Positions 36,934 to 52,717 of a stretch of 64,000 bases of DNA are shown piece by piece. How positions within the stretch are numbered: the stretch's first letter is position 1; each line of letters opens with the position of its first letter. Under the pieces are notes generated by a model. It was not told the DNA's origin. It saw only the letters and a program-made list of their open reading frames with translations, and ran no database searches. The position numbers were made by a program, and so were the translations under genes. Origin of the DNA: Actinomycetes bacterium (GTDB taxonomy: Bacteria > Actinomycetota > Acidimicrobiia > Acidimicrobiales > Ilumatobacteraceae). The stretch is taken from NCBI GenBank assembly GCA_029782355.1, contig JAKOUY010000016.1:620001-684000 (forward strand). The letters run 5' to 3'.

Positions 36934-38217
36934 GTGATCCCCACGATCGAGCACGTGCAGCGGTGGGCAGAACCGTTCGTCAACGACCTGCTCGACGAGG
37001 AGCCGGCGATCCTGCTCGAGGGGCCGCGAGGGTCCGGTAAGTCCACGCTGCTGCGCTCGATTGCCAAGCGACGTGGCGCGCTGGTGCTCGATCTCGACGA
37101 CGACAGCGTGCTCCAGCTCGTTCGGGAGGATGTCGGCACGGCGTTGGCATCGCCGGGGCTCGTCGCCATCGATGAGTTCCACCGAGCGCCCGAAGTGCTC
37201 TCGTACGTCAAGCGCGTCGTCGACCGCGAAGGCGGCGCAGGGCGCTTCCTGCTCGCCGGATCGGTGAGCTCCTTCCTGCTCCCGCCCGGGACCGAGACGC
37301 TCACCGGTCGAGCACATCGACTCTCGCTGATGCCGCTGGCTGCGGCCGAGACGTTCGGTGCCAAGCGGCGATGGCTGGCTGAGCTGCTCGAAGGGGGCGA
37401 GCCTCGCAACTTCCGGACCGAGCTCGGGCGTAGTGATGTCTTCGACGTGGTGGCGGCGGGCGGGTACCCGGCTGCCCTCCGGCGTGCCACGCCGACCCAG
37501 CGAACTCGATGGTTCGCGAGCTACCTCGCAACCGTGACCGATCGAGACCTTCCCGACCTTGTCGACATCCGTCATTCCGGCGCGTTGTCACGCCTCTATC
37601 GGCTGATCGCTCAGCGAACCTCGTCGACAGCGGTCAACACCGAACTCGCTCGTTCTCTCGACGTGTCGCAGCCGACGGTGGCGACCTATCGGCGGCTGCT
37701 CGAGCGCTTGTACCTCACGACCGAGCTGCCTGGCTGGACGGTTGGCGTCTCCGCCAAGACCGGGCATCGGGCGAAGGTTCATGTCACCGATACGGGGCTC
37801 GCCACGGGCGTGCTGTCGCTCTCGGCGCAGCGGCTCGGTTCGTCGGCGATCGGCGGTGCGTTCCTCGAATCCTTCGTGCTCGCGGAGCTGATGCGCCAAG
37901 CGACAGCGATCGACGAGGCGTTGACGTTCGCCCACTTCCGGGATCGCTCCGGTATCGAGGTCGACGTCATCATCGAGCGCCCGGACGGCACTGCGATTGC
38001 GATCGAGGTGAAGTCGGCCCGAACCGTGAACCAGCGCGACGCGAGCGCCCTGACGTTCCTGAGTGATCGCCTCGGCGATCGATTCCAATGCGGCATCCTG
38101 TTCCACACCGGCCCACTGACCGCCCGCCTCGGCGATCGTGTGTGGGCAGTCCCGGTCGCGGCGCTGTGGGACGGAGCCAAAGGCGGGCGCGATTCGTCAG
38201 AGGAAGGCAATTCATGA
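36934..38217 (+). CDS. AAA ATPase with DUF4143 domain
   Basis: A 427-residue protein. The N-terminal AAA_14 domain has Walker A EGPRGSGKST at about residues 29-38 and a Walker B-like LVAIDEFHRAPE at about 75-86; sensor region LLAGSVSSFLLP. The C-terminal DUF4143 region contains a winged-helix-like stretch (RSLDVSQPTVATYRRLLERLYL) and a restriction-endonuclease-like strand ending AIAIEVKSARTV (ExK). Start GTG 36934. Stop overlaps mod by 4 bp (ATGA), so it is co-expressed with the type III system, an unusual partner. Such ATPases are common in archaea and bacteria, role poorly defined. Confidence 0.85.
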   Translation: MIPTIEHVQRWAEPFVNDLLDEEPAILLEGPRGSGKSTLLRSIAKRRGALVLDLDDDSVLQLVREDVGTALASPGLVAIDEFHRAPEVLSYVKRVVDREGGAGRFLLAGSVSSFLLPPGTETLTGRAHRLSLMPLAAAETFGAKRRWLAELLEGGEPRNFRTELGRSDVFDVVAAGGYPAALRRATPTQRTRWFASYLATVTDRDLPDLVDIRHSGALSRLYRLIAQRTSSTAVNTELARSLDVSQPTVATYRRLLERLYLTTELPGWTVGVSAKTGHRAKVHVTDTGLATGVLSLSAQRLGSSAIGGAFLESFVLAELMRQATAIDEALTFAHFRDRSGIEVDVIIERPDGTAIAIEVKSARTVNQRDASALTFLSDRLGDRFQCGILFHTGPLTARLGDRVWAVPVAALWDGAKGGRDSSEEGNS

Positions 38218-40139
38218 GACCTCCGAAGGGGCGCCTCGAGCTCACGTGGATGGGCAAGGACATGGCGCTCATCCCGACTGCGCACGGCAAGTACGACTAC
38301 GAGTGGGTCGACCCAGCGGATCCTCGCGCGTGCGAGATCAAAAGCATCGAAGTCGTTGACACCGTCGGGGAGCCGGCCGGCCCGAACGGAGCGGAGGAGA
38401 ACCTGCTGATCATCGGCGACTCCGGCGACGCACTTCGCTCGCTCTCGACCGTGCCGGAGTGGGCGGCGAAGTACCGGGGCAAGGTCAAGCTCGTCTACAT
38501 CGACCCGCCGTTCAACACCGAGCAGACGTTCGAGCACTACGCCGACCAGCTTGAGCACTCGATCTGGCTCACCATGATGCGCGACCGGATCAGGGACATC
38601 AAGCCTCTGCTCCACGAGGACGCCTCCGTTTGGGTTCATCTCGACGACTCCGAGGTGCACCGGATGCGCGTGGTACTCGACGAGGAACTTGGTGCCGAGC
38701 ACTTCGTCGCGACGATCGTCTGGGAGAAGTCACCGGGCAGCAAGGGCGACGCGGGTATCGCGGTCAACCACGACTACATCCTCATCTACGCCCGCAACGA
38801 GCCGGCCTGGAAGAAGCTCCGAAACAGGATTCCTCGCTCCGCACGCCAAGCAGGTAGGTACGCAAATCCTGACAACGACCCGCGGGGACCCTGGCGGCAA
38901 GGCGCTGACGGCACCGCCAAGAGCGGCAACGACGACCTGAGATTCGAGGTGACCACGCCGTCAGGAAGGGTGGTGACCCCACCGAAGGGAAACTACTGGC
39001 GCTTCTCGAAGCAGACGTTGGAGACGGCCCGTGCTGAAGGCCGCGTATGGTTCGGAAAGAAGGGGGACGCGCTTCCCGTCATCAAGACCTACCTGTCCGA
39101 GATCGCGGAGGGAGTGGTGCCCGGGACCTGGTGGCCGAATCACGAGGTGGGAAGCAATCAGGAGGCCAAGCGTGACCATCTAAGGAAGCTGTTCCCCGAC
39201 ATCGAGCCCTTCTCCACACCGAAGCCCGAGCGGTTGTTGCAACGGATCCTGCAGATCGGAAGTAACCTGGGGGATCTCGTTTTGGACGCCTTCGCAGGCT
39301 CGGGCACGACAGCGGCAGTCGCGCAGAAGATGGGGCGGCGGTGGGTCACGATTGAGCTGTCGACCGACAACGTGGAGCGCTACACGCTGCCGCGTCTACG
39401 TAAGGTCGTGGAGAACGCTGACCCGTGGGGAATCACGTCGTCGACTGAACGTGTCCCGGTCAGCGTCTTGCCGGACGGCGTGAGTGCTCAAGAAGCCCAG
39501 CAGTTCACAACGATGCTCACCAAGCTGACTGACGGCGAGGCATTGCCGGTTGATTTCGCCCGAGAGATCACGAAGGCGGTTCGAGATCTGGCGTCGTCTG
39601 AGCGTTCACCCATCTCGCAGGAAGAGGCGAAAACCCTGCTTGCGCTCCTGCGAAAGGTCGCCGGGTCCGACGTCCGCGTCGAGGTCGACGTCATGCCGCA
39701 GGTACGCGCTCAGCTTCGCGAGAAAGCCAAGACCCGCAACGAGACGACCATTCTGTGGGAGGGTGGCGGCGGGTTCACCGTCGCCCGGGTCGGTCCATCG
39801 ATGTACGAGGTGGACGACGACAGCGAGGTGTACCTCTCCGCTGCAGCGACGAACGGTGCCTGGTCGAAGGCGGTCGCGGGCCAGCTCAAGTTCACGCTCA
39901 CACCGGACCACCCAGTGTTCTGCGGCGTGAGGAACCGTCAGCGGCTTGCCGTGATCGATGGGGTCGTTGACGAGACGATTGTCCGAACGGTCGTGGAACA
40001 CCTCCACGAGAAGGAGAAGGCGGTCGTCGTCGGCAAGGGTGTGCTCCCTGAAGCCGAGGCGCTGCTCGCGGAGCTCTCGCCCGGCTCCCGTATTCGCAAG
40101 GCTCCGGGCGACCTGTTCGGAAAGGCAACCGTCAGATGA
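38214..40139 (+). CDS. type III restriction-modification DNA methyltransferase (Mod)
   Basis: A 641-residue beta-class N6-adenine/N4-cytosine methyltransferase. The catalytic motif IV is VYIDPPFNT at residues 94-102 and the SAM motif I is DAFAGSGTT at 358-366; the order IV then I with a recognition region between them is that of type III Mod. AGGAAGG precedes ATG 38214, which overlaps the ATPase stop. The C-terminal 200 residues would contact Res. Mod recognises an asymmetric site and methylates one strand. Codon use is less GC3-biased than chromosomal genes, in line with acquisition. Confidence 0.92.
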   Translation: MRPPKGRLELTWMGKDMALIPTAHGKYDYEWVDPADPRACEIKSIEVVDTVGEPAGPNGAEENLLIIGDSGDALRSLSTVPEWAAKYRGKVKLVYIDPPFNTEQTFEHYADQLEHSIWLTMMRDRIRDIKPLLHEDASVWVHLDDSEVHRMRVVLDEELGAEHFVATIVWEKSPGSKGDAGIAVNHDYILIYARNEPAWKKLRNRIPRSARQAGRYANPDNDPRGPWRQGADGTAKSGNDDLRFEVTTPSGRVVTPPKGNYWRFSKQTLETARAEGRVWFGKKGDALPVIKTYLSEIAEGVVPGTWWPNHEVGSNQEAKRDHLRKLFPDIEPFSTPKPERLLQRILQIGSNLGDLVLDAFAGSGTTAAVAQKMGRRWVTIELSTDNVERYTLPRLRKVVENADPWGITSSTERVPVSVLPDGVSAQEAQQFTTMLTKLTDGEALPVDFAREITKAVRDLASSERSPISQEEAKTLLALLRKVAGSDVRVEVDVMPQVRAQLREKAKTRNETTILWEGGGGFTVARVGPSMYEVDDDSEVYLSAAATNGAWSKAVAGQLKFTLTPDHPVFCGVRNRQRLAVIDGVVDETIVRTVVEHLHEKEKAVVVGKGVLPEAEALLAELSPGSRIRKAPGDLFGKATVR

Positions 40140-42613
40140 CCATCGAGATCACCTACGACGACACGCTGATCGAGGAGATCGCCGCCCGGTTCGATCTGCG
40201 CGATCCGAACAAGCGAGCGCTGCAGGCTGTCGTCCGGGCCGTGGAGTCGGCGAACGGGACATTCGCAGAGATCGTCGCTGATCTCGCCACGGGTGTCGGC
40301 AAGACCTTCCTGATGTCCTCCCTGATCGAGTACCTCGCTCTCCAGGGCGTTCGCCATGTGCTCGTCGTGACCCCCGGATCGACGATCCAGCGCAAGACGC
40401 TCGCGAACTTCGACGAGGCCAGCAGCAAGTACGTCGCGGGCGCCGACGTTGCCCCATACATCGTTACTCCTGACAACTTCCAGGCCGCGTCGGTCGGCAC
40501 CGTGCTGCGCGATCCGAGTCGCCTGAAGGTGTTCGTGTTCAACGTGCAGCAACTGATCCGGCCGACCGACAACGTCAGCCGCAAGGTGCGTGACGAGGAC
40601 GAGAACCTCGGTGACGCGCTGTACAGCCACCTCGAGAACGCTGACGATCTGTTCGTCATCGCCGACGAGCACCACGTGTACCACGAGAAGGCGAAGGCGT
40701 TCTCTGCGGCGATCCGTGACCTCGACCCGGTTGCCCTTGTGGGGCTGACAGCGACACCCGACAGGGCTGACGTTGCCAAGATCGTCTTCCAGTACACGCT
40801 GGGTGAGGCGATCGCCGACGGCCACGTCAAGGTCCCCGTGATCGTCTACCGGAAGGACGGAACGAAGGACGAGCGGACCCAGCTGCGGGACGCGTGTCAG
40901 CTACTCGGCCACAAGACCGTCGCCTACGAGCAGTACCGAGCGATCAACGCCGACGCGCCCGCCGTCAAGCCGTGCCTGTTCGTCGTGTGCCAGTCGATCG
41001 ACCATGCCACCGATGTCGGGCAGGTACTCGCTGGCCCCGGCTTCATCGGGGACCCCGGTGCGGTCCTGGAGATCACGTCCCAGTCGTCAGACGAGGCGCT
41101 GACTGCGCTCGCGGCGGTCGAATCACCCGACTCGCCGATTCGGGCGATCGTCAGCGTCAACATGCTCCGCGAGGGCTGGGACGTGCGCAACATCGCCGTG
41201 ATCGTCGCCCTACGCAAGCTCGCGTCGCAGACGCTGACGGAACAGATCCTGGGTCGCGGTCTTCGGCTGCCGTTCGGTCGCCGCACCGGCGTGCCCGATG
41301 TGGATCAGGTCGACCTCGTCGCGCACGATTCCTACAGCCAGCTCTTGGCCCAGAAGGACGTCCTTCGACAGCGAGTCCAGCTCCCGACCACGGCGGTGGA
41401 GGTGGACGAACATGGCGCAGCGACGACTGCTGAGGTCGACGTCAGCGTCGCTGTTGGAGCCGGCGACTCGGACAGCCCCGTAGGCACGGCAGTCCGGCCG
41501 CTCCCGGGACAGACGTCGCTCTTCGACGGGCTCGGCGAGGAGTACGACGCGTATCGCAGCGAGGACCATGCGCCAGCGCCGACCTTGACCTTCAGGGAGA
41601 CCGAGGGCCGGCTCGCTGTGGCAGCCCCGGAGCCGAAGGGGCGCGTCGAGGGCGCACCCCAAGTCGTTTTTCCCCGACGCGAGTCGAGGCTCTCCTACGC
41701 AGCGTTCAGTCTCTCCGACATCCCAGACGGTGATGCTCAGGCAGCCGGCGCCCGGTTCATCAAGGAGGTTCCGACCTTCATCTACCGTGACGCGCTCGAA
41801 GCGACGAGGAGTGGTGACGACGACGTAACCATCACCCGAGTCCCTCTGGCCAACGAGGAAGCACAACAGACTCTGGCTGGGCTCGACATCGTGCGCCTCG
41901 ACCTGATCGCAGCGGTCATGCAACAGCCCGAAGTGCCGCAGGAACGGGCGAGCAAGAACGCCGCCGAGCGACTCGTGCGTGCGTTCTTGAAGGGTGCTGG
42001 TGTGAGCTCTGACGCAGACAGCGCCGAGTGGGGTCAGAAGCGTCAACAGCAGGCCGTCGAGGGGATGCGAGAGCTGATCCGGACGGCGATCGGCGGCCGC
42101 AAGAAGGAGGCACGGTACGAGCTCGTTCCAGTGGCGCTGCCCATCGAGCCGGTCCTGATCGCCAGTGACGCGAGGAACGCGTACAACGACGACTTCGTCA
42201 AGTACCAGCCGTTCGTCGGCTGGAACAAGAGCATCATGCCTGTGGCGAGCTTCGACGCCGGCTCGACCGAGTGGGCGCTGGCACACCTTCTCGACCGTGA
42301 CGACGAGATCACCTGGTGGCTGCGCCTCTACGTCGGCGAGCAGGCGTACGTCCCGACGACCGACGGGAACTACTTCCCAGACTTCATCGCGATCGACAGG
42401 GACGGGACCTTCTGGTTGATCGAGGGCAAGTCGGACAAGAACGCCAACGATGCGGATGTCCTTCGCAAGAAGGCAGCAGCCGAGAACTGGGCACGGTCCG
42501 TTCGAGACGACGGACGCTTCGGGACCTGGCGATTCCTCTTCGCGACCGAGAGCCACATCAGGCAGGCGGCCGGCTCCTGGAACGCGCTCCTCGTTGCCAC
42601 GAATCCGGAGTAG
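40136..42613 (+). CDS. type III restriction enzyme subunit (Res), helicase-nuclease
   Basis: An 825-residue SF2 helicase-nuclease. Helicase motif I is ATGVGKT (51-57), motif II ADEHH (176-180), motif III GLTATP, and motif VI QILGRGLRLPFGRR. The C-terminal nuclease has a PD-(D/E)xK core: PD at 748-749 and E763-G-K765 in FWLIEGK. ATP-dependent cleavage occurs when two unmethylated sites are met. ATGA overlap with mod. All key residues look intact, so the system is probably functional. Followed by a hairpin separating it from the convergent Rad50-like gene. Confidence 0.93.
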   Translation: MTIEITYDDTLIEEIAARFDLRDPNKRALQAVVRAVESANGTFAEIVADLATGVGKTFLMSSLIEYLALQGVRHVLVVTPGSTIQRKTLANFDEASSKYVAGADVAPYIVTPDNFQAASVGTVLRDPSRLKVFVFNVQQLIRPTDNVSRKVRDEDENLGDALYSHLENADDLFVIADEHHVYHEKAKAFSAAIRDLDPVALVGLTATPDRADVAKIVFQYTLGEAIADGHVKVPVIVYRKDGTKDERTQLRDACQLLGHKTVAYEQYRAINADAPAVKPCLFVVCQSIDHATDVGQVLAGPGFIGDPGAVLEITSQSSDEALTALAAVESPDSPIRAIVSVNMLREGWDVRNIAVIVALRKLASQTLTEQILGRGLRLPFGRRTGVPDVDQVDLVAHDSYSQLLAQKDVLRQRVQLPTTAVEVDEHGAATTAEVDVSVAVGAGDSDSPVGTAVRPLPGQTSLFDGLGEEYDAYRSEDHAPAPTLTFRETEGRLAVAAPEPKGRVEGAPQVVFPRRESRLSYAAFSLSDIPDGDAQAAGARFIKEVPTFIYRDALEATRSGDDDVTITRVPLANEEAQQTLAGLDIVRLDLIAAVMQQPEVPQERASKNAAERLVRAFLKGAGVSSDADSAEWGQKRQQQAVEGMRELIRTAIGGRKKEARYELVPVALPIEPVLIASDARNAYNDDFVKYQPFVGWNKSIMPVASFDAGSTEWALAHLLDRDDEITWWLRLYVGEQAYVPTTDGNYFPDFIAIDRDGTFWLIEGKSDKNANDADVLRKKAAAENWARSVRDDGRFGTWRFLFATESHIRQAAGSWNALLVATNPE

Positions 42614-42709: not shown

Positions 42710-44548
42710 TCAAGAACACTCGCGGAGCTCTGTTGCGTGTTCCGCTGACGACTCGTTGTCGTACGTGTCTCGTCGACGCGGTGGGAGCTCGAAGGAGTCC
42801 GTCCGGTTGATCTGGCGCAGGTGCGTGTTCGGCAGGTCCTCGGCCAGTTGCCGCGCCAGGGTGTGCTCGTAGGTGGTCACGATCAGCTGAGACGGGAGCC
42901 CGGAGCTTGTCGACATCGCAAGGTCGGTGGCAACGATTCGTCGTGCTCGGGGGTCGAGGTGCTCAAGGGGCTCGTCGAGCCACGCGAACGGAAGGGTGGT
43001 AGACGAGCGGAGGACGAGGAGGCTGGCGACGAGCCGAGCCCAGATCTGCTCGCCGCTGCTGAGCTGGTTCCAAGGGAGTTGCCGGTCTCCAACGACCCGC
43101 ACGATCGTGCCGTCGGGGCGGAGCTGGAGCCCGTCTTCGCCAAAGAGCATTTTCCATCGCCACTGCACCTGTCGTGACAGCGGCTCGATGTATTCCTCGG
43201 CGAGCCGCTCCGCGGTAGCAGTGAGCGCTGCGGCCGACGCCTGGGTGAGCGCTTCACGTCGCCACGCGACGCGCTCAGCTTCGTACGCCGCCGTCAATGC
43301 CTTGTCGTCATCGAGTCGAGCAGCGATCGAGCCATGTTCGGCGGTGATGCTGCCGGCGTGCTCGTCGTGCCGGCGCAGCGCTGCCTGCGCCAACTCGACG
43401 ATGGCATTCGGGTCGTCGGCCGGTCGAGGCTGGCCAGGCTCGGCGATCATTCTGCGCAGTTCGGCCGCCCTGCTGCTGAGTTGTTCCAGGTGCTCCCGCA
43501 GGTCGGCGAGAGCCACGAGCTCGGCCGCGGTCTCATCGATGCTGGATTGCGCCGTTGCGCGACTAGCCCGTTGTGCATCGAGAGCGCGCCGAAGCTCGTC
43601 GCCGTGGAAGGGTCGGGAGCAAGTCGGGCACGCGGGATCGTGGGCTTGGAGCAGGTCAAGCGCGGTGCTGGCGGCGAGCGCATGGGCGCGAGCCTCGTTC
43701 TGCCGTGTTTGCGCAGCCTCCGCGGACTCCTGGTTGGCTGCTATTGCCGTCCGGAGCTCGGACGCGACCTCATCGATATCGAGGCCTTGGATGCCGCCGT
43801 TGGCGGCGACGACAAGGAACTCAGCGATGGCGTCGGCCCTGGCGGCAACAGCGGCGTCGTACTCCTGCCACTGCGTCGCGATGCGCTGAGCATGGATTGC
43901 GTCGGCCACAGCTGCCGAGAGAGAGACGCGTCGATCAGCCATCGCCTCGAGCTCTCGCTCGAGGTTCGCTGCTGCGTTGGCTAGCTGGTCACGGTTGGCA
44001 ACTTGGGTGCGGGAGGCTGTTCGGAGCTTCTTGCGGGCTGCGACGGCCTCCTTGTGCAGCTTGCCGGCGACTGTGGCGGAGCGCCGCAGTCCCGATACTC
44101 CGAACGCGTCGTAGAGATGCTCGCGGAGCTGCAACTCGCCGTCATCCTTTCCGGATCCGCGAATCACTGCGAGACGTGCTGCAATGTCGATGGGCGCGCC
44201 GAACTGTCCAACCAGAAGTTCGTTGGCCGTCGACGCGGGGATCGACTGATGTCCGTTGGTGAATTCGACCGTGGTCTTTCCGGCGACAGTGACTGTTCTC
44301 CGAATGACCAAGCGGGCGGTGTCCGGCAGGAGCAGCGTGACTGAGGCCTCGGCGTGGTCGCTGCCGAGGCGAACGCACGCCCTCGCATCAACGGTGGAGT
44401 GTTCACCGAAGAGCGCCCATGCGAGGCCGAGGAGCAACGATGTCTTGCCGATCCCATTGGGTGCGACGAGGAACGTCGTACCAGGTTGGAAGCCGATCTC
44501 GACGTGGTCGAACGATCGCCAGCTGCGGAGTTCAAGATGTTCGATCAT
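42710..44548 (-). CDS. Rad50/SMC-like AAA ATPase with zinc hook
   Basis: A 612-residue protein. Walker A APNGIGKTS (29-37), long coiled-coil arms (about 160-300 and 330-460), a Rad50-type zinc-hook CPTC at 307-310, the ABC signature LSSGEQIWARL (496-506) and Walker B FAWLDEPLEHLD (521-532). Architecture is that of Rad50/SbcC or RecN-like DNA-end-handling ATPases, though much shorter than Rad50. Start ATG 44548 overlaps the previous stop by 4 bp. It ends a same-strand series beginning with the ubiquitin-like gene at 48355. No Mre11-type nuclease is adjacent. Confidence 0.85.
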   Translation of the reverse strand: MIEHLELRSWRSFDHVEIGFQPGTTFLVAPNGIGKTSLLLGLAWALFGEHSTVDARACVRLGSDHAEASVTLLLPDTARLVIRRTVTVAGKTTVEFTNGHQSIPASTANELLVGQFGAPIDIAARLAVIRGSGKDDGELQLREHLYDAFGVSGLRRSATVAGKLHKEAVAARKKLRTASRTQVANRDQLANAAANLERELEAMADRRVSLSAAVADAIHAQRIATQWQEYDAAVAARADAIAEFLVVAANGGIQGLDIDEVASELRTAIAANQESAEAAQTRQNEARAHALAASTALDLLQAHDPACPTCSRPFHGDELRRALDAQRASRATAQSSIDETAAELVALADLREHLEQLSSRAAELRRMIAEPGQPRPADDPNAIVELAQAALRRHDEHAGSITAEHGSIAARLDDDKALTAAYEAERVAWRREALTQASAAALTATAERLAEEYIEPLSRQVQWRWKMLFGEDGLQLRPDGTIVRVVGDRQLPWNQLSSGEQIWARLVASLLVLRSSTTLPFAWLDEPLEHLDPRARRIVATDLAMSTSSGLPSQLIVTTYEHTLARQLAEDLPNTHLRQINRTDSFELPPRRRDTYDNESSAEHATELRECS

Positions 44549-45435
44549 GCTGCGGCCGCTGCGGCAGTGATGCGCTCGTCGAGATCGGACTCGGTCAGTT
44601 CCCCAGCAGCCGCTTCCTCGCAGAGAGCGACCAGGAGCTGATGCTCGTCGAACGCATGCCAGGTCTCCCTCTTGGCGTCGGTGCGCGCCTTCTTGCCCTC
44701 GCTCACGACCATTGCCTGGGCCCGCGAACACTCGGCGTGGATGATCGCAGTGAGGTCGATGGGTTGGTGGTGATCACCAGCGTCCACCGAAAGGTCGGGC
44801 GCAAGTTCATCAGCGAGCCTTCGCAGGGTGTCATAGAGCGGGAGGATTGGGCGGGTAAGGCGTGGCGGATAGGTCCTTCCATCGGGGGTGCCGATGAACT
44901 CCTCGGTGTCGTATGGGTCGATGGCGACGCTGGAGAATTCGGGGTCGCCGATGACGACGACGACGGCGGCGGTCTCCGGAAATCGACCGAAGACCGGCCC
45001 TGCCGACGTGCGGGGGTCGATCTGGGAGAGACCTTCCAGCGTCGGCACGTCGTCGCGGAACTGAACTCGAATTCGAAGGGCGCCGAAGCGCACGACCGCA
45101 TCTGACTGGATCCCCTCAGCTTGCGCCGCGGCGTCCACGATTGGCTCCGAGGCGCTGCCGAGCGAGCTCACGATCTCGATGCGAACGGCGTCGAGGCTGA
45201 GGCCCACCGGGGTCGGGACCGCGAGCGCGTCCTCGAGCTCTGTGCCGCGGAGCAAGGCATCCAGCGATGGACGGGACTGGTAGGGGTCGATGCCGCGGCC
45301 TGCGTTAAGGCTGTGGATGAGGTCCTCTGCCAGCGCGCGGTCTTCGGGGGTCAGGTGGTCGAGCGACGGCTCAGGCGCACCGTCTTCCAGGTAGGAGAGG
45401 TATTCCTGGATCACTTGGTCGACGTAGTCGTTCAC
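44545..45435 (-). CDS. uncharacterised protein between sigma-like and Rad50-like genes
   Basis: A 296-residue soluble protein I do not recognise. The N-terminal 60 residues are acidic and helical (MNDYVDQVIQEYLSYLEDG, then TPEDRALAEDLIHSLNAG). The middle is mixed alpha/beta with VVVVIGDPEFSSVAIDPYDTEE; the C-terminal part is helical and ends in an alanine run. The opening resembles regulatory N-termini of proteins paired with sigma factors, but that is weak. Both ends overlap neighbours by 4 bp, so it is almost certainly made in fixed ratio with them. Confidence 0.7.
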   Translation of the reverse strand: MNDYVDQVIQEYLSYLEDGAPEPSLDHLTPEDRALAEDLIHSLNAGRGIDPYQSRPSLDALLRGTELEDALAVPTPVGLSLDAVRIEIVSSLGSASEPIVDAAAQAEGIQSDAVVRFGALRIRVQFRDDVPTLEGLSQIDPRTSAGPVFGRFPETAAVVVVIGDPEFSSVAIDPYDTEEFIGTPDGRTYPPRLTRPILPLYDTLRRLADELAPDLSVDAGDHHQPIDLTAIIHAECSRAQAMVVSEGKKARTDAKRETWHAFDEHQLLVALCEEAAAGELTESDLDERITAAAAAA

Positions 45436-46115
45436 GACTGGTTCCCTCCTCCGTAGTCGCTGATTCTCATGAACTCTGGGTCTCTCTGTGCTTCCTCGTT
45501 CAGCTTTCTGGCGGCCTTTGCGTAGATCTGGCCGACGGCTTGGGGCGAGATGCCGTAGTCGGGGCCGATCGCCTTGCGCGCTTGCCCCAAGTAGTGGATC
45601 CGGAAGTAGATCTCTCGATCTCGTTCACTGAGGTGCTGTAGTGCCAGCCGCTTCAGAATTAGCTCCTGCTGCAGGGCGATGGCCTCTCCCTCGGGATCTG
45701 CGAGCTCGTCGGCGAGTCCGTCGGCATGGCTTCTTCCGTTCTCGTCCTGCGCGTCGAGCGATTCGAGGTGGATCTCTTGGGGTCCGGAGCGCCGGCCCTT
45801 GGTCTTGTCACGCACGGCCTGGACCGCCTTGTTGTGCGCGATTGTGGTGGCGAGTGCCTCCCAACTCGTGCGAACGGTTCTCGGTTCCGTGTGCAGGAGC
45901 GCGGCAAGGGCATCGGCAAGGACGTCTTGAACGACGATCCCTCCAACAACGACCAAGTCAGCGCTGGATCGCCGCCTCACTCGCGGCCCGTGGGGAGCCA
46001 CTGTCTTCTGGATCCTGGCCCACATGACATCCGTGATGGCATCCAGCCGGGCGCGGTCCTGTAAGAGGGGATGGTCTGTGGGGAAGGCCCGCCTCCCGGA
46101 CGCCGCGCTGTTCAT
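45432..46115 (-). CDS. sigma-70-like transcription factor
   Basis: A 227-residue sigma-like protein. The C-terminal LKRLALQHLSERDREIYFRIHYLGQARKAIGPDYGISPQAVGQIYAKAARKLNEEA is region-4-like with a helix-turn-helix. The central TSWEALATTIAHNKAVQAVRDKTKGRR is region-2-like but lacks a clear DAF/QD motif. I use ATG 46115 (MNSAASGRR); ATG 46142 is an alternative. It overlaps the next gene by 4 bp and starts 127 bp after the JAB-E1 stop on the same strand. It may drive the two downstream genes or sense induction. Confidence 0.7.
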   Translation of the reverse strand: MNSAASGRRAFPTDHPLLQDRARLDAITDVMWARIQKTVAPHGPRVRRRSSADLVVVGGIVVQDVLADALAALLHTEPRTVRTSWEALATTIAHNKAVQAVRDKTKGRRSGPQEIHLESLDAQDENGRSHADGLADELADPEGEAIALQQELILKRLALQHLSERDREIYFRIHYLGQARKAIGPDYGISPQAVGQIYAKAARKLNEEAQRDPEFMRISDYGGGNQS

Positions 46116-46242
46116 GACGTGTCCATTGTCGCGAGCGCGCATGGTCGCGAAAGCAGATCCGTGCGAAAACAGTTCGCTGACTTCCTGGGCCTGGTCGCCA
46201 CTGAGGGGGTACCGGCGCGGGTCGCGTGAACATCAAGCCAGG

Positions 46243-47763
46243 TCAGTCGGGCCGGTTGCGTCTCGCCGTGCGGTCCTCGACCAGTCGGTGAGTCACCTCG
46301 GCGAGCCTGCTGAGCCATCGATCTATGCGGCTCTCGGTGGCGCATGCTCGGATCGCGCGCTGCGCACGAGCTGCGGGATGCTCGCCACTCAGGTCCTGGC
46401 GGCGATCGCCGGCGGCCTCAGCGTTCTCGTACTGGCAGCCGTCTCTCGTCGTGTGGCCGAGGTGCTCAAGGGTGTGCGTGCAGAGGAGGTACTGCAACGG
46501 CCCCGGCTCGCCGATGCCGCCGGGCGCGACGTTGAAGCTGACGAACTGAGCGAGCAGCGACGCGGTCGCACTAACAGACAACAACGCGACGTTCTCACCG
46601 CCGCGCTCGCGACCTGCGCCTGCGATGTACGTGGGATCGTCGAGCAGGCCCTGGATGTCGAGAGACACGTCGGAGACGTTGACCTGACGGTTGCATACGA
46701 GGCACGGGCGACCAGGCCGGAGTACGTGGCTGCGCCACGTTGCGTTCCGCATGCCATTGCCGTCATCGAAGACATCGACGCTGATCCCGCCGTCGATGAC
46801 GGGAACGAGATCGGCGTAGGCGATCTGATTGAGGATGACGCGTGCCCACGGCCGGTCGACACAGCAGATGACGAGATCATGGTCGAGGGCTACCGCGAGC
46901 CCGCCCTGCTCGCACACGCTGAGGTCGTAGAACGCGAACTCCGGCTCGGCGGCAGTAGCTGCGGAGCGCATGAGTCTCTCCGCGACCTCGATCTTGGAGC
47001 GGCGTGTCAGAGCATCGCGGCGGGTGGCCCCGATGAGTCTGTCCAGATTCCCGAACTCGACGATGTCGAAGTCCATGACGCTGACGTGGGCCATTCCGGT
47101 CGCGGCGAGTCGGACCGCAACGTCGAGGCCGACGCTGCCTGCCCCGACGACGAGAACCTTTCGACGCACGAGATCGCCGTGAACTTGGGCACCCCAGCAG
47201 GACACCGACCGTCGCTGACTGACGGTCGCGCGCTCCGCCGGCCTGAGTTCGTCATTCCAGCTGATCTGGAGGCGGTCGCCGATCACACGGACGTTCTCGC
47301 AATGTGTGGCCGACACCTCGAGGCCAGTGCCACGATCCCAGTGGCGGGCGGACCACGATCCGTCGCCGCCGCTGTATGTCATGCCGACCAGGGGGAAGCC
47401 GGTCAACTCTCGTACGAGGTTGGCGAAGCTGTGCTCGGCGTCGAAGTCAGGGCCGCTCATGCGCTGCCACCCGCGACTCCCTGGATGGCTGTGACAGAGC
47501 ACGAGTCCGTCCCCGCGCTCGTGAGCGATGACGGCCGCGCGAAGAACGTAGTCCCCGGCAATGGATGCGTTTCCGTGCACCTCTCGCTCGCCCGGCAATG
47601 GAGTAATCACCGACGTCAGCAAGGCGCTCGTGCGGGTTGCCCCCGTCGAGGAGCGGTAGGTAGCGAGACAGATGTCTTCCTGACCGTCCGACCGATCCAC
47701 GTGTGACTGAAGGACCTCGGCGAGGCCACAGCTCATGGCGACCGATGTAGTTCGCCGGTTCAT
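46243..47763 (-). CDS. JAB-E1 fusion: JAMM isopeptidase plus ThiF/E1-like adenylyltransferase
   Basis: A 506-residue two-domain protein. Residues about 1-150 are a JAB/MPN domain with JAMM motif H91-S-H93 ... S103-x-x-D106. Residues about 190-430 are a ThiF/E1 adenylation domain: nucleotide loop VVGAGSVG (205-212), NLDR (239-242), K257, and CVDRPWAR (301-308). PCLVC (354-357) is one CxxC for zinc or catalysis; C428 and C443 may provide more ligands. The E1 half would adenylate the ubiquitin-like protein encoded two genes upstream; the JAB half would process or remove it. ATG 47763 overlaps the E2-like stop by 4 bp. Fusion of the deconjugase and the activator is known in predicted bacterial Ubl operons. 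Confidence 0.85.
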   Translation of the reverse strand: MNRRTTSVAMSCGLAEVLQSHVDRSDGQEDICLATYRSSTGATRTSALLTSVITPLPGEREVHGNASIAGDYVLRAAVIAHERGDGLVLCHSHPGSRGWQRMSGPDFDAEHSFANLVRELTGFPLVGMTYSGGDGSWSARHWDRGTGLEVSATHCENVRVIGDRLQISWNDELRPAERATVSQRRSVSCWGAQVHGDLVRRKVLVVGAGSVGLDVAVRLAATGMAHVSVMDFDIVEFGNLDRLIGATRRDALTRRSKIEVAERLMRSAATAAEPEFAFYDLSVCEQGGLAVALDHDLVICCVDRPWARVILNQIAYADLVPVIDGGISVDVFDDGNGMRNATWRSHVLRPGRPCLVCNRQVNVSDVSLDIQGLLDDPTYIAGAGRERGGENVALLSVSATASLLAQFVSFNVAPGGIGEPGPLQYLLCTHTLEHLGHTTRDGCQYENAEAAGDRRQDLSGEHPAARAQRAIRACATESRIDRWLSRLAEVTHRLVEDRTARRNRPD

Positions 47764-48104
47764 ACTGCTTCCCCGATGACGCCGCGCACATGGGCAACCC
47801 ACCCGGCCGTCGGGTCTGGATCGTTGCCCCACCCGACGATCTGGCGGGAGTGTCCGAGCCAGCCTGGCATCGGGCATGGCTGCGTGTTGGTTGCTGCGAA
47901 GCCAACGCCGTTCGGCAGGTAGATCCAGTGCGGCGGCACGAGTGGCCAGCGAGAGAGTTCATCGATTGCGACGGCGCTCTCTACAACCTCGCCAGCGAAG
48001 CGACCGTCCACGACGTCGACGTCGTAGACGATGTGTCCGTCGACGGATCTGGGGGCGGCCCCGTAGGCGGTGAGCCCGGCGGTGAACCCCTCGGGGCCGC
48101 TCAT
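47760..48104 (-). CDS. E2-like ubiquitin-conjugating-type protein
   Basis: A 114-residue protein resembling prokaryotic E2-like families. The core PPHWIYLPNGVGFAATNTQP, then GWLGHSRQIVGW and GWVAHVRGVI. There is a single cysteine, Cys77 in TQPCPMPG, placed after the beta sheet as in E2 folds, so it is the candidate thioester residue. It lies between the Ubl and JAB-E1 genes with overlaps (TGATG and ATGA). The assignment rests on context plus the LPxxVxF and W/HSR pattern; it is below certainty from sequence alone. Confidence 0.7.
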   Translation of the reverse strand: MSGPEGFTAGLTAYGAAPRSVDGHIVYDVDVVDGRFAGEVVESAVAIDELSRWPLVPPHWIYLPNGVGFAATNTQPCPMPGWLGHSRQIVGWGNDPDPTAGWVAHVRGVIGEAV

Positions 48105-48355
48105 CAGGCCACGTCTGCGCGGTGTCGGATGCTCACGAACCGCGCCATGTCGTGGATCTCGACAACGTTCTCGTCGCCGTACCGCACCGGCTCGGGGCGG
48201 TGTCCCTTGAGTTCACCGAGATCGAAGTTGGCGGGATCGAGGCCGGCCAACCGGAGCAGATCCTGGGCCAGCTGCTTGCGATCGGTCGTGGTGTAGGGCC
48301 GACCGTCGATGGTGAATCGGATCTGCCGGCGGAGTGCGGAGATGTTGTCGTTCAT
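48104..48355 (-). CDS. single-domain ubiquitin-like (multiubiquitin-type beta-grasp) protein
   Basis: An 83-residue protein that matches one repeat of the bacterial multiubiquitin family: QIRFTIDGRPYTTTDRKQLA, then LLRLAGLDPANFDLGELKG, and VVEIHDMARFVSIR. These proteins are ubiquitin-like modifiers. Here only one beta-grasp unit is present and the C-terminus is RHRADVA, without the terminal Gly-Gly. A strong Shine-Dalgarno AAGGAGGG precedes ATG 48355; the longer frame upstream is antisense to the DUF3024-like gene. First gene of the Ubl-E2-JAB/E1 operon. Confidence 0.8.
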   Translation of the reverse strand: MNDNISALRRQIRFTIDGRPYTTTDRKQLAQDLLRLAGLDPANFDLGELKGHRPEPVRYGDENVVEIHDMARFVSIRHRADVA

Positions 48356-48413
48356 GGGGGCATCCCTCCTTAGGGGGCGGGTCGAGCCGAGCGGCTCTGA
48401 TCCACTTGTCGCG

Positions 48414-48785
48414 ATGGCGGACCGCGGCGAAAGTGGGAGGGAGACGCAACGCCAGGGGACCTGGTTCTCGGTCGGGCTCGAGAGAGAGCGACGAGAGGAA
48501 TTTGGCCGTTGTGCGCGACGCCCCCGTCCAGCAGGTCGGCGACACGTCCCGAGAGCGGAGGAGCCCCGGAGCGTCCCGTGGCGGGCAGACTTCGGCTCGG
48601 CGTGGACCCGCTTCCCGATTGCCCGGCTGCGATACACGAGGGCGTGCCGGGAGTGGCAGATCTACTGGCGTGATCGGAATCTCAAGTTCCACGTCTACGA
48701 CCTCGTCGCGCCGACGGCGAACGTCGGGGCTCTGCTGGCGGAGATCGATGCTGACGCTGACCCTACCGGCATGTCCTGGAGCTGA
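48414..48785 (+). CDS. DUF3024-like protein, divergent or degraded N-terminus
   Basis: A 123-residue frame. The C-terminal 65 residues fit DUF3024: WRADFGSAWTRFPIARLRY, then WQIYWRDRNLKFHVYDLVAP and LLAEIDADADPTGMSW. The first half (MADRGESGRETQRQGTWFSV and an Arg-rich stretch) does not look like the usual family N-terminus and may be degraded; no alternative frame restores it clearly. Divergent from the Ubl gene by 58 bp. Function unknown. Confidence 0.45.
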   Translation: MADRGESGRETQRQGTWFSVGLERERREEFGRCARRPRPAGRRHVPRAEEPRSVPWRADFGSAWTRFPIARLRYTRACREWQIYWRDRNLKFHVYDLVAPTANVGALLAEIDADADPTGMSWS

Positions 48786-48994: not shown

Positions 48995-50089
48995 TCAGCC
49001 GTCGGTGCTGCCCAGGCCGAGACCGGAGAGGTACTCGAGGACCAGCCGGTTGCCGCGGAACCACAGTGCGGCCACGCTCGACCACTCGTCGGTCTGAATC
49101 TCGCCATCAAGGCGGAAGACCTTGCGGTACTGATCGCTTCTGCCACGACTGGCGAAGTCGTTGACAGTCCGGGGGTAGAGACTCGGCTCGTACCCCTTGA
49201 CCGCGCCGTCGCAGTGAATGAAGACCCCTCGCGATGTGTCGCGGATGGCATGGAGGTACCGAGCCAACACGAGATCCGATTCGTCTGAGCGTATGGGAAC
49301 GAGCTCCTCGATCTCGATCGTCTTCAGCTTGTCATCAGCCGTCCAACGAAACGACGTAGCGACGTAGGGATTCAAGATGGACTGCCCACCCGCTGGGTCG
49401 CCATGGATCGTCTCACCCACGAGGTGTTCGTTGTCGAGAAGTTCGTTGTTGAGCGGTGGGCCGAACCAGTAGTCGCGCTCCTCGATCTCCTCGTGCTCGG
49501 ATCTCAAGCGCAGTCGGTGCCCATCGACCGCCAGCCGAGCTTGGACCTCCTTGACGCGCGCGATCCCGAGCACCGTTGCGACGAGGTCGTAGTGGATGTT
49601 CGAGGCGAAACCCCGGCGGAGGAACTGGTGGTAGTGGATGGAAAGGTCGGCGTGGAGCAGTCCGTGGGGGCGCGCGTCGAGGTCCGCCACCGAAAGCAGC
49701 CCATCGTCGTCGACTCGATCGAGCAGGTCGGGTGCCTTACTGAAGACACGGTCGGTCAACGCAGGCTTCTGGAATACTGGCCAGTGCATGTCGAAGTAGT
49801 CCGCCCACGGCGCTGCCTCGAGCAGCGAGGCGGCCGCGTCGCCAAGTTGCATGACCTCCGGCAGCCGATCCACGAGTCCGTCGACCACCTCGGGCTCCGA
49901 GGCGTGCCAGTCTTCTATGCAGGTGACGGCTCGGGAGCGCGCCTCCACCAGACGAGCCCTCTCGTCGCTGAACAAGAAGATGGGCGGCGTTGCGAGATCC
50001 GTCATGACCTCGAGCAGGTCTTCGTAGATCACGCCAAGCCGGCCCTTCACTGCGGCCACGAGGTCTGCAGGGATGAAGTCAGGTGTCAT
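48995..50089 (-). CDS. uncharacterised protein paired with HNH-like gene
   Basis: A 364-residue soluble protein I do not recognise. The N-terminal 120 residues are helical (FIPADLVAAVKGRLGVIYEDLLEVM). The middle contains HADLSIHYHQFLRRGF and EERDYWFGPPLNNELLDNEHLVGETIHGDP, the C-terminal part is beta-rich (SSVAALWFRGNRLVLEYLSGLG). ATG 50089 overlaps the preceding gene by 11 bp, so the pair is co-translated. Context suggests defence cargo; no catalytic motif is recognised. Confidence 0.65.
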   Translation of the reverse strand: MTPDFIPADLVAAVKGRLGVIYEDLLEVMTDLATPPIFLFSDERARLVEARSRAVTCIEDWHASEPEVVDGLVDRLPEVMQLGDAAASLLEAAPWADYFDMHWPVFQKPALTDRVFSKAPDLLDRVDDDGLLSVADLDARPHGLLHADLSIHYHQFLRRGFASNIHYDLVATVLGIARVKEVQARLAVDGHRLRLRSEHEEIEERDYWFGPPLNNELLDNEHLVGETIHGDPAGGQSILNPYVATSFRWTADDKLKTIEIEELVPIRSDESDLVLARYLHAIRDTSRGVFIHCDGAVKGYEPSLYPRTVNDFASRGRSDQYRKVFRLDGEIQTDEWSSVAALWFRGNRLVLEYLSGLGLGSTDG

Positions 50090-50915
50090 CCGTCTGCGAC
50101 CGCTCGGCTTGGGCAAGTGCGTCCGGGCGCGGGAACTCGGGATTGAGGATTCCCGTCCAGAAGGATTCGTGGAACTGACGAAGGCCGTCACGATCGCGCA
50201 CGACGGGGGCGTGCGGTGGCCAAGAGATGCCATCCGGCGTGGGAGGCCAGATCATGAGGGGGAAGTCGCTCCCGCGCGCCCACCGCTCGTGATTCTCCAT
50301 ACCCGGGCCGCCCACGATTGCGATCACGACGTGGCCGATCGCGAGCGTCACCGAGAAGGAGTTGGGCGCCGTCGGTGCTTCGAGATCGGTCGTTCGCGTC
50401 GGCGCAGCGAGGTGACCACTCACGTAGAAGTCGAAGGGCTGGGAACCGGGCTCGGGCCGGAAGGCAAGCCGCATGTGATAGCTGGGCGGCGCGATGCCAT
50501 CCCGGTAGATCTGGCGGAGATCGTCGTGGCCGAGAACGATGGCGCCATCTTCGTAGTGATCGAGGAGGACAGCGACCTTGGCCGCCCAGCGAGCCAGTGC
50601 CATCTGATCCGCGACGGCGAGCCGTGCATCGCCACCGCGGACCATGGGTTCGAGGAACGGCCGCACCTGGCCCTCCAGCGATGACATCCAGCCGTTGTTG
50701 CACTCCTCGCAGACTGCCTTGACTACGACTTCGGGTCTGCGCTGTGGGTGCGACCGTGTGGTGCGACTTCCGTCGGAGTCGATGAACTCGAACCCGAAGT
50801 CGTAGCCCTCGTTGTCCCCGAACGCGTCCGCAAGCACCTCGCCGAGCCAGAACGGCACGAGGTGCTCCCTTGTGAGCGGCGTCGAACCGCACCATGCGCA
50901 ACTTGTGCCGGCCAC
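50079..50915 (-). CDS. HNH/treble-clef zinc protein, putative nuclease
   Basis: A 278-residue protein. The N-terminus has CAWCGSTPLTREHLVPFWLG and, 45 residues on, VCEECNNGWMSSLE: two CxxC pairs with an EHLVP (His) motif, the layout of HNH endonuclease-like treble clefs. The rest is an alpha/beta domain (FRPEPGSQPFDFYVSGHLAA, FSVTLAIGHVVIAIVGGPG). GTG 50915 gives VAGTSCAWCG; an upstream ATG at 51032 would add an Arg-rich leader and is less likely. Partnered with the overlapping unknown gene at 48995. Confidence 0.65.
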   Translation of the reverse strand: MAGTSCAWCGSTPLTREHLVPFWLGEVLADAFGDNEGYDFGFEFIDSDGSRTTRSHPQRRPEVVVKAVCEECNNGWMSSLEGQVRPFLEPMVRGGDARLAVADQMALARWAAKVAVLLDHYEDGAIVLGHDDLRQIYRDGIAPPSYHMRLAFRPEPGSQPFDFYVSGHLAAPTRTTDLEAPTAPNSFSVTLAIGHVVIAIVGGPGMENHERWARGSDFPLMIWPPTPDGISWPPHAPVVRDRDGLRQFHESFWTGILNPEFPRPDALAQAERSQTDDT

Positions 50916-51145: not shown

Positions 51146-52642
51146 CTACGGCTCGGGGCAGCGGATCACTACCTCATGAGCGCCGGCATCGACCGGTACC
51201 GGTTGGACTCGGCTGTGGTCGAAGTACCGACCCCGCTTGCCCTTACGGATCACGACGTGCTCGACGAACAGGCCGACGAGGGCACGTTGCTGGTCGAGGT
51301 CGAGGCGGTCCCAAGTCTCGGCGGTCACGCACTCCCAAGTCGTGCCGTCGAGTTTGGGGTGGATGATCAGCTGGTCGAGCCGTCGCCTTGCGAGCATCAG
51401 GCGAGCGTGGATCGGATCCTGTGCCGCAAGGAACTGCGCGCGGCTGATCCGCTGAGCGCCGTAGTCCTCCGCAAGGCCGGCGAGGAACCGTTCGTCGGAC
51501 TCGATCGAAGCGACCAACTGGTGGGCGTCGCCGCCGGCTCGGCGAGCGCGGGCGGTTGCGATGTCGGTGTGTTCGAGCGCGGCGAGCACGTAGTCGACGA
51601 CGATCTGCTCGACGTAGTCGGCCTTCACCGTGTTGGAGCCGCAACCGTGGCGGTTCGCCTTGTCGCTCGCGATCGTCCGACGAGGCGGACGCTGTCCCGG
51701 CTTGAGCTTCTTGTCCATGCGCTCGCTGACCGCGGCCATCACCGAGCCGCACTCGGCGCACCGGCACATCCCGGCGAGCAGGTTGACCTTCGGCCGGCGA
51801 CCGATGGGTGCATGGGTGAGACGGGAACGCACTTGCTCCCATGTCGCCCGGTCGAGGATCGGCTCCCAGTTCGCTTCGCCGACCACTTCGCCTTTGGACT
51901 CACGGAGTCCGGTGATCCGCCCCGCCTTGAGGATCATGCTCAGCGAGCCTGGCCGCCACTTCTTGCCATGCGCCGACTGGATGCCGCGATCGTTGAAGTC
52001 GACGACGATCGAGGCGAGCGACTGGCCGCCCAGCACACGTGCAGCCGCCTCCCGAATGACGGAAGCCTCCTCCGGTACGACCTCGATCTGGCCCTGTGCC
52101 ACTCGCCGGTAGCCGTAGGAGCGGCCGCCGCCGTGGGCGTTGCCGCGTTCCGCGTTCTGGTGGTGCTTGGCGCTGACACGCTCACCGATCCGAGCGGACT
52201 CGTGCTCTGCCGCCGCACCGAGGACTTGGGCGGTGAAGCGGCCGCTCGCTGTGTTGAGGTCGACGTGACCGGCAGCGACCGTTCGGATCTCGACCCCTGC
52301 TGAGGCGACCACCTTGGTCAGCTCGACGAGGTCGGCAAGCCGCCGGTACAGCCGGTCGGGGTGATAGGCGACGATGACGTCGATCTCGCGCCGACGGACG
52401 AGGTCGAGCAGACGCTCGTACTCGGGGCGGCACGCACCGGAGTAGGCGCTCAGGTCGTTGTCGACGAGCACCTCGTCGACGCTCCAGCCTTCGAGGTCGG
52501 CCAGGTGGCGGCATGCGTCGATCTGTCGGCCGACACCGGCCGCCTCGCCGACCTTGTCCAACGAGATCCGGGCGTAGACCGCAGCACGCCCGAACAGCGT
52601 GCCTGCCCCCGTGCGGACGTTCGAATGTCGCTTCGCCGTCAT
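51146..52642 (-). CDS. large serine recombinase (integrase)
   Basis: A 498-residue site-specific recombinase. The resolvase domain carries the catalytic serine at S27 in VYARISLD, then VGRQIDACR and VIVAYHPDRLYRR. The recombinase domain follows (GGRSYGYRRV and VNDRG-type FNDRGIQSAHGKKWRPGSL), then the zinc ribbon with CRCAECGS and a distal Cys in RHGCGSN, and a C-terminal helical segment. ATG 52642 gives a standard start; the frame extends to 52690. Its position next to the fpg att site marks it as the element's integrase. No recombination directionality factor was identified. Confidence 0.93.
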   Translation of the reverse strand: MTAKRHSNVRTGAGTLFGRAAVYARISLDKVGEAAGVGRQIDACRHLADLEGWSVDEVLVDNDLSAYSGACRPEYERLLDLVRRREIDVIVAYHPDRLYRRLADLVELTKVVASAGVEIRTVAAGHVDLNTASGRFTAQVLGAAAEHESARIGERVSAKHHQNAERGNAHGGGRSYGYRRVAQGQIEVVPEEASVIREAAARVLGGQSLASIVVDFNDRGIQSAHGKKWRPGSLSMILKAGRITGLRESKGEVVGEANWEPILDRATWEQVRSRLTHAPIGRRPKVNLLAGMCRCAECGSVMAAVSERMDKKLKPGQRPPRRTIASDKANRHGCGSNTVKADYVEQIVVDYVLAALEHTDIATARARRAGGDAHQLVASIESDERFLAGLAEDYGAQRISRAQFLAAQDPIHARLMLARRRLDQLIIHPKLDGTTWECVTAETWDRLDLDQQRALVGLFVEHVVIRKGKRGRYFDHSRVQPVPVDAGAHEVVIRCPEP

Positions 52643-52717
52643 TCGCTGCGCTAGCTCCTCGGGTGCTCGGGACTCCCTTTGAAGTCCCACCTGCGGGAGC
52701 TGCTCAGCGCGTCGTGA

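Follow-up and report, generated by a model that had tools for sequence, protein, structure and literature searches.

The subject of this account is a 64,000-nucleotide stretch of DNA (hereafter the window; contig JAKOUY010000016.1, positions 620,001 to 684,000) from an Actinomycetes bacterium of the Ilumatobacteraceae, whose genome as assembled is 3.79 Mb long and 98% complete. Within it lie six genes in two operons that we consider probably to form a single mobile module, i.e., a Bub-type tagging cassette joined to a sigma-factor switch that would sense DNA ends or damage through a Rad50-like ATPase (Table 1). The cassette consists of a ubiquitin-like protein (Ubl, P0001), an E2-like protein and a JAMM peptidase fused to an E1/ThiF adenylation domain (JAB-E1); the switch consists of a sigma factor (P0004), a probable nuclease-fold protein (P0005) and the Rad50-like ATPase (P0006). 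The homologies of these proteins, the linkage of their genes and an element shared by the two operons, CTTTCG-N15-GCGACA, came directly out of the computations, and the arrangement suggests that tagging is turned on by DNA damage or phage attack. The first-pass annotation, made from the letters of the window, had drawn the interval 46243-48355, which covers the cassette and stops short of the three co-inherited genes at 42710-46115 and of the shared element.

Table 1. Features of the window discussed in the text (positions are those of the window).
Feature	Position	Strand	Basis
Ubl (P0001), single beta-grasp unit, 83 residues, C-terminus ...RHRADVA	48104-48355	-	sequence family (Multi_ubiq)
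E2/UEV-fold protein, BubB-like, 114 residues	47760-48104	-	AlphaFold2 model, fold match to BubB
JAMM peptidase fused to E1/ThiF adenylation domain, BubCD-like, 506 residues	46243-47763	-	ThiF and BubCD matches
P0004, extracytoplasmic function (ECF)-like sigma-70 family factor	45432-46115	-	TIGR02937 above cut-off
P0005, 296 residues, probable restriction-endonuclease-like central fold, helices at N- and C-terminus	44545-45435	-	AlphaFold2 model
P0006, Rad50/SMC-like ATPase with CPTC hook, 612 residues	42710-44548	-	SMC_N, AAA_23
Putative sigma promoter of Ubl operon, CTTTCG-N15-GCGACA	48407-48433	-	exact copy
Putative sigma promoter of sigma-P0005-Rad50 operon, CTTTCG-N15-GCGACA	46127-46153	-	exact copy, ends 11 nt before ATG at 46115
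Type III restriction-modification genes (Res, Mod)	38088-42610	+	family scans

The three overlapping minus-strand genes of the cassette had the sizes and places claimed for them, with an overlap of 1 nt between the Ubl and E2-like open reading frames (ORFs), one of 4 nt between the E2-like and JAB-E1 ORFs, and a good ribosome-binding site, AGGAGG, before the Ubl ORF. A scan for JAB-E1 loci confirmed 159, of which the best 80 were taken; the addition of three further loci and the removal of two near-identical copies (L042 and L063) left 81 distinct homologous loci, and all counts therefore cover nearer relatives only. Upstream of JAB-E1, a Ubl was found in 79 of the 81 and an E2-like gene in 80, a recurrence that marks the trio as real genes. 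The hidden Markov model searches that had been proposed gave mixed results for the window proteins themselves, i.e., a clear match of JAB-E1 to ThiF (3.5e-23), a match of the Ubl to Multi_ubiq that was below the Pfam cut-off (E=0.0035), and, in the same family scan, no match of the E2-like protein to any family, Prok-E2_E included, or of JAB-E1 to the JAB family. Because these scans were weak, the identities were settled by relatives: Multi_ubiq was matched at 0.01 by 33 of 63 aligned Ubl units (the window unit, itself among the 33, and 62 of 102 domain hits; best 2.4e-8), and Prok-E2_E by 12 of 74 aligned E2-like rows (the window protein, not among the 12, and 73 of 82), while residues 14-359 of JAB-E1 matched the solved Citrobacter BubCD (PDB 9ea4) with E=3.3e-22. 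The JAMM residues E29, H91, H93 and D106 were present in all 79 rows with letters there, and the E1 adenylation motifs were likewise kept across the JAB-E1 rows. The identities and the kinship to known bacterial Ubl operons that the first-pass annotation had claimed were thus borne out by the BubCD match, the BubB fold described below and the retention of the trio in relatives. By its sequence family the Ubl is assigned as a beta-grasp protein, and by its JAB-E1, Ubl and E2-fold features the trio is assigned as a member of the known Bub, or "type 6e", operons. The single Ubl unit, which had been singled out as a peculiarity, is indeed present, and is not distinctive, being the commoner state (59 of 79 loci). 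At one locus (L036:8146-12278) the JAB-E1 gene was broken by an inserted element whose genes looked transposition-related by eye.

The fold of the 114-residue protein, on which its identity had been said to hinge, was E2/UEV-like in an AlphaFold2 model with a pLDDT (predicted local distance difference test) of 96.7. The best PDB match in two programs was BubB (9eae_C), with Z 7.8 and a root-mean-square deviation (rmsd) of 3.7 over 108 residues (the tool itself rates a Z below 8 as modest); next came the UEV domain of TSG101 and E2 enzymes, and almost all of the 50 rows were E2/UEV-type folds; in Foldseek, BubB had E=0.1, with none below, and the matches mixed E2s with unrelated folds. Three residues, P58, S86 and R87, were invariant in the 74 aligned rows, in which, as among the 80 distinct homologues, there was no conserved cysteine. 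That the protein has one cysteine, Cys77, is literally true; the residue is unconserved, and the 18 of 80 distinct homologues with a cysteine in the matching motif, which were confined to one other clade (some of whose members are without it), carry it one alignment column away. A further 31 of the 80 have no cysteine at all, and none of the nine six-gene relatives described below has one in the matching motif (L045 carries another cysteine, immediately ahead of the conserved Trp). A profile alignment to UBE2F, itself weak (E=0.61), places the column of the clade's cysteine, one from Cys77, on the cysteine of CLSLL, which we take to be the catalytic one. Cys77 as a catalytic E2 cysteine is not supported, and was rejected on the alignment and the tree.

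Only C301, C354, C357 and C443 were near-universal cysteines in 80 rows of JAB-E1, with C32 in the JAMM part (56 rows), C439 (39) and C284 (38) partly conserved. Three of the near-universal four (C354, C357 and C443) probably bind zinc together, as the corresponding cysteines of MoeB do. With no conserved E2 cysteine and no further invariant E1 cysteine, a classical E1-E2 thioester relay appears unlikely; unusual intermediates have reportedly been described for Bub by Ye in 2026. Iyer and colleagues likewise proposed for the E2-like domain that such a relay is unlikely (PMC1779556). As for the Ubl tail, the 76 units that run to a stop codon ended in VA (42), VS (18), TA or TS (10), VV, VT or VE (4), HG (1) and RE (1), and in Ubl-E2 fusions (L101, L108 and L119) a short linker separates a -VS or -VA from the E2 domain after it. 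Because the ends and the fusion junctions have the same -VS/-VA, they suggest a mature tail of -V-A/S, at which the JAMM domain would cut.

After JAB-E1, on the same strand and with 4-nt overlaps between them, come the genes of P0004, P0005 and P0006. P0004 scored 45.7 bits against TIGR02937 (cut-off 42.9), with Pfam sigma region 4 below cut-off, and P0006 matched SMC_N (7.9e-13) and AAA_23 (3e-11), and holds a Walker A motif, a hook CxxC (CPTC), an LSSGE signature and a Walker B motif; in PADLOC it gave partial matches to mad3 (1.3e-16) and LmuB (1.2e-12). P0005 proved harder to place. Its AlphaFold2 model had a pLDDT of 73.8 and found no match with E below 0.039 in Foldseek, so the call on its fold rests on a second comparison, with residues 74-212, in which the top matches were Hjc-type Holliday-junction resolvases (Z 7.9, with an rmsd of 3.3 across 105 residues) and the majority of rows were restriction-endonuclease-like folds. 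A fold of that type is tentatively put down as probable for the central part of P0005. In alignments of 12 and 16 homologues, no (D/E)xK motif stood among the columns that were invariant or nearly so.

In 9 of the 81 other loci all three genes were found no more than 10 kb from the trio, some collinear with it and some in a divergent layout. Eight of the nine are metagenome-assembled genomes titled Actinomycetes, Thermoanaerobaculia, Deltaproteobacteria, Hyphomicrobiales, Gammaproteobacteria and Caldilineaceae, so that single taxon labels may be wrong. On the Mycobacterium avium plasmid pP7a, six genes follow the order of the window: two encoding small hypothetical proteins, where the Ubl and E2 would be, and then those for a ThiF protein of 58% identity, a sigma-70 factor, a P0005 relative (27% identity, E=1e-4) and an AAA ATPase (35% to P0006), and its record was the sole match of P0005 and P0006 in the plasmid collection. 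At L065 and L082, P0005 and Rad50 are preceded by a 350-residue gene that looked sigma-like by eye (the L065 gene was without a Pfam match). Between module and Ubl at L065 (8764-9222) and L082 there is also a small divergent ORF, PemK/MazF-like by eye, of which the L065 copy had no Pfam match. In a FastTree phylogeny of JAB-E1, the complete module sat in the clade of the window, where L040 and L046 have genes of the M78 clusters in its place, while the Rad50-bearing loci L065/L082, L080 and L095 fell outside that clade. Since M78 genes replace the module within the clade and Rad50 loci lie elsewhere, modules have probably been exchanged between trio loci. In a phylum sample of 396 genomes, P0005 relatives (E 1e-6) were found in nine: that of the window, one with the trio (G021), and seven others (loci L131 to L137). 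In L131 (4863-7462) a Ku gene (3.6e-47) directly follows the Rad50-like gene, and in L132 a Ku relative adjoins the module, which by association, in these two of the seven stand-alone loci only, ties the Rad50-like ATPase to double-strand breaks. L131 also has a lone intact Ubl gene, divergent, beside its sigma-P0005-Rad50-Ku genes, with neither an E2 nor a JAB-E1 detected there.

What binds the two operons is the element CTTTCG-N15-GCGACA, which was spotted by eye upstream in relatives and in the window, fixed on the letters of the window, and then tested on the relatives. The 3.79-Mb genome has exactly two copies, one before each operon, and none of the reversed control; with one mismatch allowed, it has ten further copies, and the control nine. 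Of 11 module loci, 8 matched at least 10 of the 12 element letters in the stretch before Ubl, as did 7 of 86 control rows (Fisher ~6e-6); at least 11 letters were matched by 5 of 11 and 0 of 86 (Fisher ~7e-6). The control rows were Ubl domain hits, tandem Ubls being counted twice, and were searched over 260 nt from the domain start, as against 200 nt from the chosen start codon in the module loci; L065 and L082 were omitted from the 11, no sigma homologue having been detected there. Upstream of the sigma gene, at least 10 letters were matched in 7 of 10 linked loci and in 5 of the 7 stand-alone loci, with p 0.01-0.06 against random stretches for single sites scoring at least 10. The sigma genes of the second controller class introduced below scored 8 or 9, i.e., at chance level. 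With a relaxed pattern, 7 of 11 genomes showed the two sites where they were expected and G400 showed one; the pattern was nearly unique (2 to 5 matches) only in G000, G386, G397 and G398. The composition table of the element holds 19 of 24 possible sites and is descriptive, since weaker ones were omitted. Taken with the sigma-family assignment of P0004, these counts argue strongly for the element being a promoter used by that factor, which most likely drives both operons.

Other trio loci have other controllers. Genes for M78 (ImmA/IrrE) peptidases, with or without a helix-turn-helix (HTH; XRE) gene, were present at 47 of the 81; 6 have genes for a sigma factor, a partner and an M78-like peptidase; and at 17, some on short contigs, none was detected. 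This tally was made by single-linkage gene cluster, with L080 (Rad50 at the contig end) entered under none detected and L095 (a Rad50-like gene ~5 kb off) under M78; Pfam was run on one representative each of C4, C6, C7 and C28, the C28 match being below cut-off, and C22 and C23 were counted without a Pfam run. The second class (L054, L055, L075, L076, L077 and L109; L121) consists of a sigma factor, a partner of ~220-280 residues and an M78-like peptidase, lies upstream of the trio on the same strand, and is found also on the Nocardioides plasmid pCHL. The N-terminal part of P0005 may be common to the partner that follows the sigma factor in this class.

The likenesses to described systems are instructive. 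BilABCD and the Cap2/Cap3 of type II CBASS (cyclic oligonucleotide-based antiphage signalling) share with the cassette a Ubl-like conjugation logic with a JAMM peptidase. Type II CBASS has a CD-NTase gene in its operon and an E2-E1 fusion, Cap2, whereas the E2-like protein is separate here, with no E1-E2 fusion, and no CD-NTase was seen among ten proteins scanned at the locus. Bil has an E2 with a catalytic cysteine and a CEHH motif and an E1 with an extra conserved catalytic cysteine (PMC11354881), unlike the family of the window with respect to both proteins. The Citrobacter Bub proteins (BubCD 9ea4, BubB 9eae) have the same JAMM-E1 fusion and E2-fold partner, but the E1 of the window has a conserved CxxC that BubCD is without in the alignment. 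The type 6e operons of Iyer, Burroughs and Aravind (2006) have the same three core genes, with the E2-like gene in the middle; they are described as mobile and as encoding a polyUbl of one to three repeats, an inactive E2/RWD protein without the cysteine and a JAB-E1, and a metal-binding protein (C-x3-C-x35-38-H-x2-C) counts as a trait of 6e only, with a zinc-finger protein Y in the operons of that paper (PMC1779556). The terms sigma factor, Rad50 and SMC do not occur in its text.

A review gives Bub operons as Ubl, E1, E2 and protease, and such bacterial systems as appearing to act mainly against phage (PMC12687455). Known Bub controllers answer DNA damage, with CapH+CapP together with CapW at 219 of 544 Bub operons (PMC13373217), and the M78-with-HTH genes at other trio loci resemble CapH+CapP. 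A transcription switch beside a Bub-type operon, triggered by DNA damage in the known cases, is a feature that the window shares with them, whereas CapW, CapH+CapP and CapK+CapS work via repressors (PMC13373217) and the controller here is sigma-P0005-Rad50, in which a nuclease-fold protein and a Rad50-like ATPase accompany a sigma factor; neither Rad50 nor SMC occurs in the text of PMC13373217. In the literature searched, which did not extend to the main Bub papers, no paper linking a sigma factor, Rad50 and a JAB-E1 operon was found. As those papers may mention sigma- or Rad50-linked operons, it is a provisional judgement that what is new is the joining of a known conjugation cassette to a controller that we did not find described.

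How might such a module work? The cassette would adenylate the -VA terminus of its single Ubl, which would be attached to a protein with the help of the non-canonical E2-like partner, and the JAMM domain would mature or remove it. The sigma factor would recognize the elements before its own operon and before that of the Ubl, so that both would be turned on. The Rad50-like ATPase would sense DNA ends or damage, such as arise on phage entry or replication collapse, and P0005, probably an anti-sigma factor or adaptor, would together with the ATPase free the sigma factor. Conjugation, its target and DNA sensing we infer, as we do the anti-sigma role of P0005, for which the grounds are its gene position, translation directly after sigma, and the 4-nt overlap. 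A more specific version is possible, to be held more tentatively than the module itself, in which sigma, P0005 and the Rad50-like protein are an undescribed DNA-end-sensing switch for immune operons: the Rad50-like protein would bind broken DNA, P0005 would release sigma, and cysteine-poor Ubl tagging would come on from a promoter that the genome has in two places only, the switch being interchangeable with HTH plus M78-peptidase controllers and having a sigma-partner domain in common with the sigma plus M78 type.

Several observations weigh against these proposals. In all seven stand-alone genomes, i.e., seven of the nine with P0005, sigma, P0005 and Rad50 stood side by side in this order, and the 9.6-17.5 kb retrieved held no JAB-E1, so the operon has a life of its own; ThiF-type matches in these genomes were distant only (best 1.6e-13), and the sigma match of L132 was weak (E=0.0007). 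The element scored only 9 of 12 upstream of Ubl in L032, L041 and L044 (p 0.17-0.27 against random stretches) and 9 upstream of sigma in L032, L048 and L049, and inclusion of L065 (score 8) and L082 (7), both with P0005 and Rad50, brings the Ubl-upstream count to 8 of 13. The relaxed pattern was absent at the locus in G021, G396 and G399, and since it had 13 to 20 matches in each of G399 to G403, as against 5 or 6 for controls, uniqueness is established for the genome of the window and not for all relatives. The fold of P0005 rests on a modest model, and the protein is unlike any known anti-sigma factor; its comparison with the sigma/M78-class partner (C12) by hhalign was not significant (prob 1-5%), the sole bridge being that the partner profile picks up a single additional ORF of the set, which is P0005 from L132 (E=0.0017). 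Bub operons, moreover, have not been shown to stop phage (PMC13373217).

The strongest competitor, though in our judgement an unlikely one, has two unrelated defence or stress modules on one island, in which Rad50-P0005 is an effector (SMC plus nuclease fold, in a Lamassu-like logic) and the sigma factor co-opts the Ubl operon. The seven genomes with the switch and no JAB-E1, the Ku genes of L131 and L132, and the partial mad3 and LmuB matches of P0006 speak for it, but P0005 has no conserved (D/E)xK, and the linkage recurs in records of several phyla and in two layouts. The same linkage and the shared element, together with the intact Ubl that L131 keeps beside its Ku-bearing module, could be read another way: that the Ubl is a tool of the Rad50 module, conjugated to sigma, P0005 or the ATPase so as to prime or release it, as type II CBASS primes its cyclase. 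We give this somewhat less credence, since most trio loci are without the module, those 47 with M78 genes having these instead, the sigma module also stands without the trio, and L131 may be a decayed locus.

It is improbable that CTTTCG-N15-GCGACA is an operator for an unlinked regulator and no promoter of P0004. In its favor, the element was first recognized by eye, its link to transcription is a prediction, and the relaxed pattern has many other matches in five relatives' genomes; these points are countered by the fixed 15-nt spacer, the short distance to the start codons, the similar sites before sigma in most stand-alone loci with none elsewhere in the genome of the window, and P0004 being the only protein here of a recognized promoter-binding family. 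Slightly less probable still is a ThiS/MoaD-like or peptide-adenylating pathway, in which the trio would make a small molecule and tag no protein. The E1 domain does resemble MoeB (8.8e-11), and has no invariant cysteine beyond the four named; nevertheless, the fused JAMM, the E2-fold partner and the BubCD homology argue for tagging, no biosynthetic genes were seen among the ten locus proteins scanned, and the -VA/-VS tail of the Ubl is unlike the GG in which sulphur-carrier proteins end. A Bub-type cassette under its own sigma switch remains the reading that we favor.

The surroundings of the module are in keeping with the earlier claim of a mobile element, as GC content is 64-67% at 36-52 kb, against 67-74% elsewhere (GC also drops at 18-20 and 56-62 kb), and this island has at its end the gene of a large serine recombinase (51146-52690). 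Its limits are not fixed: no convincing att repeats were found, the longest shared words being 14 bp and near chance by rough arithmetic, and the 64-kb window has no tRNA genes. The type III restriction-modification system that was said to travel with the operon is present as a neighbor and is not a conserved partner, since at E 1e-10, across the 81 other trio loci and seven further ones, Res had no matches and Mod one (L074); it was ruled out as part of the unit, as were P0007 and P0008, which had no homologues in the locus sets at 1e-4 and 1e-10. A search for the operon in viral contigs gave 16 candidate stretches, none confirmed. At the left end of the island (36934-38217, plus strand) is a DUF4143/AAA_14 ATPase, relatives of which also lie close to the trio at L043 and L081. 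A minus-strand gene just upstream of the Ubl operon (48995-50089) encodes a 364-residue protein with no family match and no homologue in other loci. The 278-residue protein of a further minus-strand gene (50079-50915) had no Pfam match, although its cysteines, CAWC...CEEC, looked HNH-like by eye.

Here, then, a bacterial Ubl system is coupled to a sigma factor of its own and to a Rad50-like ATPase. The chemical puzzle of such systems is sharpened, as the Ubl would be passed on with no conserved E2 cysteine and, in the E1, none beyond C301 and the likely zinc set. The linkage makes testable which stress turns on Bub-type systems and what they do, and the short element, unique in the genome of the window, would serve as a direct reporter for the trigger.

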